Of a DNA stretch of 42,972 nucleotides, positions 32,349 through 38,312 are shown piece after piece (the first letter of the stretch is position 1; the number at the start of each line of letters is the position of its first letter). The notes beneath the pieces are model-generated. The model searched no databases and was not told the DNA's origin. It saw nothing but the letters and a program-made list of their open reading frames with translations. This DNA comes from a virus. A program made the translations under genes and the position numbers. The stretch covers positions 1 through 42,972 of the IMG/VR virus record IMGVR_UViG_3300020215_000085; one strand, given 5' to 3'.

Positions 32349-33425
32349 TTGCGCGTCGAAATCGACGGGATGGTGCTGGAAGGCCCTCCCGAGGAGGTGT
32401 TGCCGATGGTGCGCGCCCTGCGGGGCGAGGCGCCAGCGCTGACCGCGAGGCCCGTGTATGCGGCCCCCGCCAAGACCGTGCGCGAGCTCTGGAAGGACTA
32501 CGCAGTCTACGCCGAGTCGCGGATCAAGAGCTTCAAGCACCACCGAAAGCAGGTCGAGGGGAGCGTGGTGGCGTGGTTCGGGGACAAGGCGTGGAACACG
32601 ATCGACCAGGCGATGGTGGACGCGTACATCGCGAAGCGGGCCGAGGATCCGGGGCAGCGAGAGGGGCAGAAGACGTCGCCCAGTACCCGAAGGCGTGAGC
32701 TGACGTGGCTCGCTTCGATGTTCACATGGGCCTTGCGCCGCAAGCTCATCGACCGGCACCCCACGCGAGGGCTCGAGCGGGAGAGCATCAAGGACTGCAA
32801 GCGCAAGTGCTACCTGGATGAGCCGACCTTCGAGCGGCTGGTCGCTGCGGCTCCGTGCGAGATAGCCGCCGACATGTTCCGGGTCTGGTTCTGGGAGGGG
32901 TGCAGGCGCGACGAGATCCGCTTGCTCCGAAAGTCCGAGGTGAACCACGAAGCGAAGATGCTCTTGCTACACGGCAGCCGCATCAAGAACGGCCAGGACA
33001 AGGTGATACCCCTGGCGGACGTGTCGTACGAGATCATCCGTCGCTGGTCGGAGGTGTCGCGGGGTGACTACGTCTTCGGGAATCCGAGGAACCACACCGT
33101 CCCGGTGCCGCCGACGACGCTCGGCTACTGGTTCCGCCGGGCGCGCAGCAAGAGCGGGGTGAAGGGGCTCGGCGGGCGTCCCGAGGAAGTCATCGTGCTG
33201 CACGGCCTTCGCCGCTCGTTCGCTACCGGCATGGCCGCAGTCTCGGCGCCGCTGCAACTAGTCCAGCAGGGCGGCGGCTGGAACGATCCCGAGATGGCGA
33301 AGCAATACACCCAACTCCACGGCGAGACGCTAGAGACCCTGCGCGACTTCAAGAACCTGCGCGTAGGTGCGAAGAAGGCGCGCGAAGAGAACGTATCGGC
33401 GCGCACGAAATCTCGACGCGTGTAG
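32349..33425 (+). CDS. int: Tyrosine-type site-specific integrase
   Basis: Up to 358 residues. The catalytic set is present: Arg186 in EGCRRDEIRLL, Lys213 in SRIKNGQDK, His285-x-x-Arg288 in VLHGLRRSFATGM, Trp311 (in place of the second His) in GGGWNDPEM, and nucleophile Tyr320 in AKQYTQL. An N-terminal SAM-like core-binding domain is at about residues 42-140. The enzyme inserts and excises the phage genome at attachment sites, showing a temperate origin. The start is uncertain: TTG 32349 gives the full length, ATG 32370 is 7 codons later; neither has a good SD. Confidence 0.9.
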   Translation: MRVEIDGMVLEGPPEEVLPMVRALRGEAPALTARPVYAAPAKTVRELWKDYAVYAESRIKSFKHHRKQVEGSVVAWFGDKAWNTIDQAMVDAYIAKRAEDPGQREGQKTSPSTRRRELTWLASMFTWALRRKLIDRHPTRGLERESIKDCKRKCYLDEPTFERLVAAAPCEIAADMFRVWFWEGCRRDEIRLLRKSEVNHEAKMLLLHGSRIKNGQDKVIPLADVSYEIIRRWSEVSRGDYVFGNPRNHTVPVPPTTLGYWFRRARSKSGVKGLGGRPEEVIVLHGLRRSFATGMAAVSAPLQLVQQGGGWNDPEMAKQYTQLHGETLETLRDFKNLRVGAKKAREENVSARTKSRRV

Positions 33426-36409: not shown

Positions 36410-37324
36410 GTGGCTGGCGAAGTCTCCGCGTACATGAACTTCTACCCGCGTGACTACCTCGCGGGCGTTGCGCACATGGGGCCAGAGGACAGGGGCAATT
36501 ACTCCACGCTGCTATTTGCGATGTGGGACCGGGGCGGTTGGCTGGTGCTCGACGCCGACGCATTGGCTCGCCTTTGCGGCACTTCACGTAAGGCGTTTGA
36601 CGCCAGTTGGCAACGCATCAAAGAGAAGTTTCGCGTAAATCCGGACGTCGGAACGTTCACTCATGATCGCTTGCAAGAGGAGTGGCGGAAGGCCACTGAG
36701 CGCAGGCGCAGGGCGACCGACAACGGCACCCGCGGCGGTCGGCCAAAGTCTCCAAAGCCGCAGGAACAAGCCAACTTGGATAACCTACAGGTTATTTCTG
36801 GGTTACCCAAACAGGAACCCAAACGAAAGCTAGACATACAGGTCCCTGGGTTCAGTTTGGCTAACCCAGGGGAAAGCTCTTCATCTGCCATCTGCCAAGG
36901 TCAGAGGTCAGATTCCGGTAGCTTCGCTACCGGCGCGAAGCCTTCGCGCACGAAGCCCCCGCAGGACAAGCGGGTGGGTGAGATTTACGGCCTGTTCCGC
37001 CCGCGGTGGCGCGCGATGTACGGCGACGGATGGGCGCCTGAGCCGGGACTGTCCAACAACGTGACCCAAATGCTCGCGGCGTTGGACCAAGCATCCCCCG
37101 TCGAAACTGCGGAAATCGACGAATGGCTGGCGCGCTTCTTCGCCGACAGCGACCAGTTTCTCGTCGACGCGCGGCATTCGCTGCGCCTCTTTTGCGCGAG
37201 TTTCAACAAGTGGCGAGTAGAGCCCGGGGCCATCGTTCGGCGCGGTGGCGGACTGAGCGAGAGAGACAAGCGCAATGCCGAGGCGCTGGCGGCATTCGGC
37301 CGATCACTGGGGGTGGCAAAGTGA
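36410..37324 (+). CDS. DUF1376-type replication initiator
   Basis: 304 residues from GTG 36410. The N-terminal 70 residues match the DUF1376 winged-helix pattern (MNFYPRDYLAGVAHM, GNYSTLLFAMWDRGGWL, DADALARLCGTSRKAFD). A variable, low-complexity linker (about residues 105-185) is encoded by DNA full of palindromes, and a folded C-terminal part follows (GEIYGLFRPRWRAMYGDGW). As in lambda O, such proteins bind an origin inside their own gene and recruit the replication machinery. A P-like gene follows with overlapping stop/start. Its role as initiator is well supported by family and place. Confidence 0.72.
   Translation: MAGEVSAYMNFYPRDYLAGVAHMGPEDRGNYSTLLFAMWDRGGWLVLDADALARLCGTSRKAFDASWQRIKEKFRVNPDVGTFTHDRLQEEWRKATERRRRATDNGTRGGRPKSPKPQEQANLDNLQVISGLPKQEPKRKLDIQVPGFSLANPGESSSSAICQGQRSDSGSFATGAKPSRTKPPQDKRVGEIYGLFRPRWRAMYGDGWAPEPGLSNNVTQMLAALDQASPVETAEIDEWLARFFADSDQFLVDARHSLRLFCASFNKWRVEPGAIVRRGGGLSERDKRNAEALAAFGRSLGVAK
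36780..36949 (+). other. Candidate replication origin inside the initiator gene
   Basis: Within the linker-coding part lie ATAACCTACAGGTTAT (36780-36795), the palindrome TGGGTTACCCA (36799-36809), an AACCCA (36816-36821), and CCCTGGGTT (36844-36852) facing AACCCAGGG (36863-36871). Two back-to-back stem-loops follow: CCGGTAGC-TTC-GCTACCGG (36915-36933) and GCGCGAAG-C-CTTCGCGC (36933-36949). The shared core TGGGTT/AACCCA looks iteron-like, and 36775-36865 is visibly richer in A and T than the surroundings. Confidence 0.55.
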
Positions 37325-37971
37325 ACGAGACGACGGACTACGGAAGATTTGCGATGGCGCTTGGCACGATGGCGGCGCTGTTCAGGTTTGACGTCGGCGC
37401 GGCAGTCCCTGCGTACATGCAGGGGTGCCGCAGCTTGACCATCGACGAATTCGAGGCCGCCTGCGCATTAGCCACCGAGAAGCTCGAGCACATGCCCGTC
37501 CCCGCGCAGCTCTTGAAACTCGCCCGTGACGCCCGCGCCAAGGCCGATGGGAGAATCCAGATCGGCCAGGGCGAATGGGTGGCGGACCCCTGGAAGCAAA
37601 GGCCTCGCGCGCAGCTCCCCGGCAACGTCGCCAAACGCATGGCGCCCCCGGTCCCGACCTACGCCGAGTGCATCGGCTCGTGCCAACAGAACATCGACGA
37701 AGCGACGGAGCGAGCGAGGAACGCGCCCGACACCGACGACGGGCGCATGGTCCGCCGCGAAGCCCTCAACGCCATGAAGCACTGGAGGGAGATGCGGGTG
37801 TGGTACGAGGGGCAGGCCAAGGCGGGCCGTGGCGAGGAGAGAATCGCCATTGGCAGCTTCGTACCACCCGAGGCGCAAACGCCTCCCCAGCAGCCTCCCG
37901 TTGCGCCTGAGCCCCATTGGAGCGAGGGGCGAGAGGTGGGGGCTGACGATCTCGAGGAAGCACCGTTTTAG
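37321..37971 (+). CDS. Putative helicase loader / replication protein (lambda P-like position)
   Basis: 216 residues, GTG overlapping the initiator stop. Helical N-terminal half (MALGTMAALFRFDVGAAVP, ITIDEF-like LTIDEFEAACALATEKLE, MPVPAQLLKLARDA) of the kind found in phage replication P proteins, then a basic middle, and an acidic tail DDLEEAPF that resembles the hydrophobic-acidic tip of SSB proteins. Position after a DUF1376 initiator suggests a helicase loader. Sequence support is moderate. Confidence 0.55.
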   Translation: MNETTDYGRFAMALGTMAALFRFDVGAAVPAYMQGCRSLTIDEFEAACALATEKLEHMPVPAQLLKLARDARAKADGRIQIGQGEWVADPWKQRPRAQLPGNVAKRMAPPVPTYAECIGSCQQNIDEATERARNAPDTDDGRMVRREALNAMKHWREMRVWYEGQAKAGRGEERIAIGSFVPPEAQTPPQQPPVAPEPHWSEGREVGADDLEEAPF

Positions 37972-37985
37972 CGAAAGGGAGACCA

Positions 37986-38312
37986 ATGCTCAGAGGCGAC
38001 GTAAAGGGCGAAGTGATCAGCAGCGAGACCAACCCCAAGGGCAACGCCCATATCGTGGTGCTAAAGGAGGACAAGGGGCGATACGTGAACCACTTGGCGG
38101 TGGAATTCTTCGGGAAGACGCTGGAGGCGGGACAGACGATCCAGGTCGGCGACGTCGTGAGGGTGTCGGGGTTTGTGGCGTCGAGGGAGTGGCAGGGGCG
38201 CTGGTTCACGGCCTTCAAGGCGATGAGCGCGACCGTTGTGGGCGGCAAGGTGAAGCACACGAAGCCCGCCCCCAGTGAGAGCGACGACCCTGCGGATGAT
38301 GTGGAGTTTTAA
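37986..38312 (+). CDS. Single-strand DNA-binding (OB-fold, DUF3127-like) protein
   Basis: 108 residues; GGGAGA upstream. The beta-barrel layout GDVKGEVISSETNPKGNAHI, NHLAVEFFGKTLE, VGDVVRVSGFVASREWQGRW, FTAFKAMSATVV resembles the DUF3127/OB-fold group of phage SSB proteins. The C terminus DDPADDVEF has the acidic, Phe-ended form of SSB tips that recruit partners. It would protect single-stranded DNA during replication and may work with the RecT protein. Fits the replication block. Confidence 0.72.
   Translation: MLRGDVKGEVISSETNPKGNAHIVVLKEDKGRYVNHLAVEFFGKTLEAGQTIQVGDVVRVSGFVASREWQGRWFTAFKAMSATVVGGKVKHTKPAPSESDDPADDVEF

Follow-up and report, generated by a model that had tools for sequence, protein, structure and literature searches.

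Positions 36780-36949 of the viral DNA analysed here (IMG/VR record IMGVR_UViG_3300020215_000085; the whole stretch of 42,972 nucleotides is called the window) are probably a phage replication origin that lies inside the gene coding for the phage's own initiator, a reading to which we give, on the strength of the sequence, a probability of about 0.85. The proposed initiator carries a DUF1376 domain, and the window shows origin-type features at this gene: an iteron cluster inside it and, adjacent to it, the region of lowest GC. The preliminary description had already proposed an origin here. Its DUF1376 assignment, DNA-binding wing and linker are supported, and the first check that it suggested is borne out by an element conserved among relatives; the P-like nature of the following gene and the suggested skew check find no support. 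In the literature searched we came across no experiment placing an origin in a DUF1376 linker, nor any paper about origins of this kind; the domain is seldom mentioned. The gene, its parts and the two genes that follow it are:

36410-37324, plus strand: DUF1376 gene, proposed replication initiator of 304 amino acids (Pfam PF07120 and PHROG)
36431-36682, plus strand: DUF1376 domain, predicted winged helix (Pfam residues 8-91)
36734-36748, plus strand: GGRPK basic tail, of the class that goes with TGGGTT/AACCCA iterons
37321-37971, plus strand: next gene, which overlaps the stop codon of the initiator gene; its position alone makes it a helicase-loader candidate
37986-38312, plus strand: SSB-like OB-fold protein (DUF3127; Pfam E 2.7e-10, PHROG single-strand binding E 7.8e-7)

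The family assignment is borne out by Pfam (PF07120, E 1.7e-14, 54.4 bits against a curated cut-off of 30.1), and the PHROG match of the protein is to "primosomal protein" (E 1.9e-20). An AlphaFold model built with 40 relatives agrees with the DNA-binding wing proposed earlier: the N-domain (approximately residues 10-110, with pLDDT above 90 for most of them) is predicted to be a winged helix and terminates in a long helix. Foldseek returns weak similarity for this domain (best E 0.012), its leading matches being winged-helix domains of the CRP, MarR and ZBP1 (Zalpha) kinds. The linker is likewise visible in the model as a low-confidence segment (residues 124-186 or so), predicted to be disordered and coded by roughly 36770-36970; because it is disordered, such a linker would tolerate a DNA signal in its coding sequence.

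For the product of the downstream gene, no relative turned up in Pfam or PHROGs, or among phages and viral contigs, and its single-sequence structure model is poor, so the label "P-like" that it had received comes down to position. In sequenced phages, the gene next to DUF1376 frequently encodes DnaB or a helicase loader, or is annotated as "replication protein P". A tyrosine integrase gene (32349-33425) lies upstream of the replication genes in the window.

The repeat cluster consists of the following features:

36774-36883, no strand: 110-bp stretch with the lowest GC in the window (47%)
36780-36795, no strand: palindrome ATAACCTACAGGTTAT
36790-36804, plus strand: 15-mer word GGTTATTTCTGGGTT, kept in DUF1376 linkers in several frames and both orientations
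36794-36804, minus strand: iteron 1, AACCCAGAAAT, the same 11-mer as in the array of locus L215
36799-36809: TGGGTTACCCA, a string quoted in the preliminary description and present
36816-36826, plus strand: iteron 2, AACCCAAACGA
36842-36852, minus strand: iteron 3, AACCCAGGGAC
36844 and 36863: facing pair CCCTGGGTT / AACCCAGGG
36844-36871: dyad made by iterons 3 and 4
36863-36873, plus strand: iteron 4, AACCCAGGGGA, which pairs with iteron 3
36882-36897, no strand: 7-nt tandem repeat CATCTGCCATCTGCCA
36898-36912, no strand: 7-nt tandem repeat AGGTCAGAGGTCAGA
36915-36933, minus strand: first hairpin, CCGGTAGCTTCGCTACCGG, with an 8-bp stem and the bottom-strand loop c(GAA)g; contains GCGAAGC
36933-36949, no strand: second hairpin, GCGCGAAGCCTTCGCGC, adjoining the first

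The order of modules runs from the palindrome and iterons (36780-36873) through the 7-nt repeats (36882-36912) to the hairpins (36915-36949). All of the strings quoted in the preliminary description are found in the sequence, and the core TGGGTT/AACCCA, said to recur at least four times, has exactly four copies in 36799-36868, compared with 10 in the remaining 43 kb and at most one in any other 90-bp stretch of the window (Poisson P about 8e-9, calculated post hoc). The dyad score of 36780-36949 is 343; shuffles of synonymous codons average 36, none of 2000 scoring as high. The score is the highest among the 170-bp stretches of the 43-kb window. Coverage by recurrent 8-mers also ranks the cluster first in the window; the same metric ranks the lambda ori first in lambda. 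Two of the three period-7 exact tandem runs of the entire window fall in the cluster, a feature overlooked earlier. The part described as richer in A and T (36774-36883) is indeed the GC minimum of the window over 110 bp, though still 47% GC, and the two adjacent perfect stem-loops (36915-36933 and 36933-36949) are confirmed. The palindrome cluster is real, but it is not a single class of site: it is composed of iteron dyads and a separate hairpin module, with the tandem repeats between them. DnaA boxes are absent from the 43-kb window. Cumulative GC skew, which had been suggested as a check, has its minimum near 11 kb, away from the cluster; as the global minimum in lambda also lies off its ori, this test is without force.

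Close relatives of the window protein are missing from the viral and genome contigs scanned, and the nearest phage proteins share 28-33% identity or thereabouts over the N-domain. Distant DUF1376 families were therefore compared instead, and the evidence for conservation is theirs. The comparison set comprised 106 non-redundant DUF1376 loci (representatives below 75% identity, distant from the window protein), aligned at the start of the DUF1376 domain and profiled in 150-bp windows; all family counts given here are of sequences and not of independent events, the tree-based switches excepted. At +300 and +350 from the domain start the dyad score reaches 84 and 80, against 10-33 off the peak; recurrent 8-mers cover at least 30 bp in 75-79% of the loci, against 3-18% off the peak; and GC falls 6-7 points under the locus mean. 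Relative to synonymous shuffles, dyads are 3.3-fold in the linker, 1.6-fold in the domain and 0.9-fold in the C-terminal part. Repeat arrays are present in 72 of the 106 linkers. Their period is 6 or 12 in 48 of the 72, the others including 5, 7, 8, 11, 14, 19 and 22 nt, that is, periods that are not multiples of 3. In many relatives, 6-nt arrays give the linker a simple peptide, for instance (TD)n or (DK)n. The iteron core is of 7 bp, often at 11-bp spacing, and the three-part signal occurs at the equivalent position in far more than a hundred other phages. The check proposed earlier, whether linker DNA keeps its repeats while the protein linker varies, comes out in favor of an origin-like element retained in linker-coding DNA. 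At the level of sequence, these results show that DUF1376 genes conserve a three-part DNA element (iterons, 6-7-nt tandem repeats and a hairpin) in the DNA that encodes the linker. As to the strand of the arrays, four linkers (L162, L164, L170 and L171) have arrays of CTTCAT, which resemble the complement of the purine-rich arrays (AAAGAT) seen in other members, and the choice of strand seems to depend on the group.

A single word of the window illustrates this conservation. We scanned 2.9 million viral contigs for GGTTATTTCTGGGTT and obtained at least 119 stretches with the word. DUF1376 is near at least 84 of the 119 listed, and the 35 listed stretches lacking DUF1376 nearby correspond to the background level. 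In linkers, the word is read in forward frames as VISGL (at least 48) and GLFLG (at least 2), and in reverse frames as NPEIT (at least 32) and PRNNP (at least 3). Its use in both orientations and four frames argues that the DNA is conserved and not the peptide. In L215, the 11-mer of iteron 1 forms a tandem array of AACCCAG-N4. In L242 (positions 2180-2350 of IMGVR_UViG_3300036652_001674), a complete element, with TGGGTT repeats, three copies of CCACTACT and two adjacent hairpins, is found directly 5' of the start codon of the DUF1376 gene; the linker of the protein is short, plain and free of repeats. By its content, this is a natural relocation of the origin-like element, a single case, which indicates that the DNA element can leave the linker. 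Two further candidates for relocation, L225 and L250, were rejected, as the word lies within the domain by chance.

Three kinds of basic tail directly follow the DUF1376 domain, and each goes with its own iteron: GGRP (the window) with TGGGTT/AACCCA, AGKxSA with GTTCAAC, and AxxRW with ATGCGnnnGCAT (ATGCG). The iteron class of the window agrees with its tail class. The pairing showed no crossing in the first set and one exception among the assigned members of an independent set. On a tree of 115 leaves, built from the domain core with the tail left out, tail and iteron match in 114 of 115 (the sole mismatch is L365), with the tail class changing about 12 times and the iteron class about 11 times; the counts of the GGRP set are biased, since part of it was gathered through the TGGGTT word, and the window, L007, L008, L010 and the independent validation set are free of this bias. 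In the sequences thus compared, the basic tail beside the winged helix and the iteron vary together, which can reflect recognition through the tail, co-transfer of neighboring DNA, or both. In some K-tail linkers (L017, L032, L071 and L018), GTTCAAC iterons stand 11 bp apart in both orientations, and some of these K-tail iterons are contained in long palindromes, with arms of 13 bp in L017.

The third module is a hairpin. Many relatives have, at about +400 to +445, a perfect stem of 7-10 bp whose sequence differs from phage to phage. The loop on the top strand is mostly TNNC closed by C-G, which is c(GNNA)g on the bottom strand; DNA loops of the c(GNA)g and c(GNNA)g types are unusually stable. 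Stems of at least 8 bp with loops of 3-5 occur in the hairpin segment of 21 of 101 loci (shuffles: mean 3.0, maximum 5). Among the 17 unique tetraloop stems of at least 8 bp, 12 have the GNNA loop on the bottom strand and none has it in the reverse orientation. When sites were selected by the hexamer CTNNCG alone, 17 of 35 in the linker and 1 of 2066 elsewhere were flanked by arms able to form a stem of 6 or more bp; in a validation set gathered later by protein similarity, independently of this rule, the figures are 5 of 42 and 1 of 968 (p 6e-7). The first hairpin of the window has the bottom-strand loop c(GAA)g and that of L242 has c(GCA)g. This triloop form, c(GNA)g, was seen only in these two, which also share the arrangement of two adjacent hairpins. 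A triloop rule, CTNCG, was discarded after finding 0 of 36 in the independent validation set. ViennaRNA with DNA parameters gives the first window hairpin equal stability on both strands, so the program shows no loop effect. The requirements of the phage N4 promoter hairpins are a C-G pair closing the loop and a loop with 5'G and 3'A, and these hairpins extrude at physiological supercoiling (PMC4496689). A composite hairpin, TCACTTCGTTC, with variable outer stems, was spotted by eye in linkers such as L006, L103, L107 and L123. Its 11-nt center TCACT[TA]CGTTC is present in these four and in L124, L129, L133, L134, L234 and L257; the outer stems differ but pair, and the apical loop on the bottom strand is c(GAA)g or c(GTA)g.

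The hairpin lies within a transcribed gene, and it might act as RNA, in the mRNA, where it would adjust how the replication operon is translated or attenuated or how stable its message is; among the top-strand loops, UAAC and UGAC would suit the UNAC class of RNA as well. We regard this as unlikely. The top-strand loops TAGC, TACC and TATC are not UNAC, while all the loops named here suit the bottom-strand form c(GNNA)g; the hairpin is not followed by a run of T; and the hairpins of L242 are situated just upstream of the gene, together with the remainder of the element.

The iterons and the matching tail have the character of a binding site, which does not tell the outcome of binding. DUF1376 protein could bind there for another use, the element being an intragenic autoregulatory operator, a partition site or an incompatibility-type handcuffing site; a peak of binding sites is equally expected for an operator or other site bound by the initiator, and some DUF1376 genes are near cro/cI-like regulators. 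An operator would be unusual, however, 300-450 nt inside a gene and accompanied by tandem repeats of 6-7 nt, a drop in GC and a hairpin specific to one strand. The module order fits known origins (PMC7466680, PMC6316719), and the neighboring genes are those of DnaB, loaders and SSB, not partition genes, which leaves this explanation improbable.

The pair of adjoining stem-loops at the cluster's edge, in a linker of a kind that tolerates insertions, could also be a mobile palindromic insertion (REP/RPE-like), and this we consider very improbable: a nucleotide search of phages gave no convincing dispersed copies of the hairpins, and many relatives have a hairpin of different stem at the equivalent relative place. 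Lastly, the derivation of the repeats from a low-complexity disordered linker, by microsatellite slippage or amino-acid preference, accords with the (TD)n and (DK)n peptides of 6-nt arrays and with the 48 of 72 arrays of period 6 or 12, but is already contradicted, and hardly credible, given dyads well above synonymous shuffles, many array periods not divisible by 3, a single 15-mer read in both orientations and in four frames, hairpin stems that vary with pairing retained, and an L242 element outside the gene with a plain linker.

How the origin would work can be outlined. Dimers of the DUF1376 protein would bind the iterons through the winged helix and the basic tail, and the nucleoprotein complex would melt the A+T-richer repeat region. 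The hairpin might then be exposed on the single strand, or be extruded under negative supercoiling, and could mark the place of the helicase or primase, or of an RNA polymerase making the primer. The C-terminal part, with the neighboring loader or DnaB, would recruit the helicase. We see an even chance that the DUF1376 phages have an undescribed class of origin, which combines a tail/iteron code with a conserved strand-specific hairpin, c(GNNA)g or c(GNA)g on its bottom strand, positioning priming or helicase loading at the melted origin; in that class, as part of the same even-odds reading, the basic tail would switch together with iterons lying some 40-150 bp further along the gene. If the origin reading is true, a domain labeled as of unknown function acquires a function and a precise DNA target, and the origins of hundreds of phages and prophages could be predicted to the base. 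The results suggest that a simple code relates the origin repeat to a short tail of the protein. They also make a DNA hairpin specific to one strand a possible component of the origin, which would link phage replication to the work on hairpin extrusion in N4.

Origins within initiator genes have precedents. In the Bacillus phage SPP1, according to the available text of the source, oriL in gene 38 has direct repeats and an A+T-rich unwinding element in the gene of the origin-binding protein, and genes for a loader and a DnaB-type helicase lie alongside (gp38/gp39/gp40), as in the DUF1376 phages; gp38 is of another initiator family, and that text describes neither tail/iteron classes nor a loop-restricted hairpin (PMC6316719). 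The repABC plasmids have oriV within the repC coding sequence near an A+T-rich region (PMC3155836). They resemble the DUF1376 element in having the origin inside the initiator coding sequence; RepC belongs to a different, plasmid family, and its origin is in a large A+T region of repC.

The Rac prophage has an active, normally repressed origin, oriJ (PMC3945230). Its ydaU (L174:6120-6977, E. coli K-12; 1421119-1421976 of MG1655) is a DUF1376 gene with an AGKAS-type tail, and the linker has TGTTCAAAC-type repeats in both orientations, AAAGATACAGATAAAGAT and GC down to 36%; unlike the window, its iterons are of the K type and not TGGGTT. By its sequence, the ydaU linker is a candidate site of oriJ, and we found no source that places oriJ in ydaU. 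The phage N4 promoters for the virion RNA polymerase have the c(GNA)g loop, as does the bottom strand of the window with c(GAA)g, and their hairpins are extruded by negative supercoiling (PMC4496689). The N4 hairpins, however, are promoters for an unusual RNA polymerase and not part of an origin, and the common loop of the DUF1376 family is the tetraloop c(GNNA)g.

In lambda, the origin is in the middle of gene O. The iterons there, to which O binds, are each an imperfect inverted repeat of 19 bp, and an A+T-rich tract comes after them (PMC7466680, PMC5043065). The window initiator matches DUF1376 and primosomal families only, with no O-family match in Pfam or PHROGs, and is unrelated to O by sequence; the DUF1376 protein would work like O yet is not an O. 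The DUF1376 element also differs from the lambda origin in its 7-bp iteron core, often at 11-bp spacing, in the tandem 6-7-nt repeats that replace a plain A+T tract, and in the strand-specific, loop-restricted hairpin at its far end. The likeness is in the plan: the proposed origin lies between the DNA-binding and the partner-binding parts of the initiator, the gene of a helicase partner, in the window a candidate, comes next, and the order of iterons, easily melted repeats and inverted repeat resembles that of lambda. The lambda plan with an unrelated initiator family, as the preliminary description had it, is apparently what the DUF1376 phages have.
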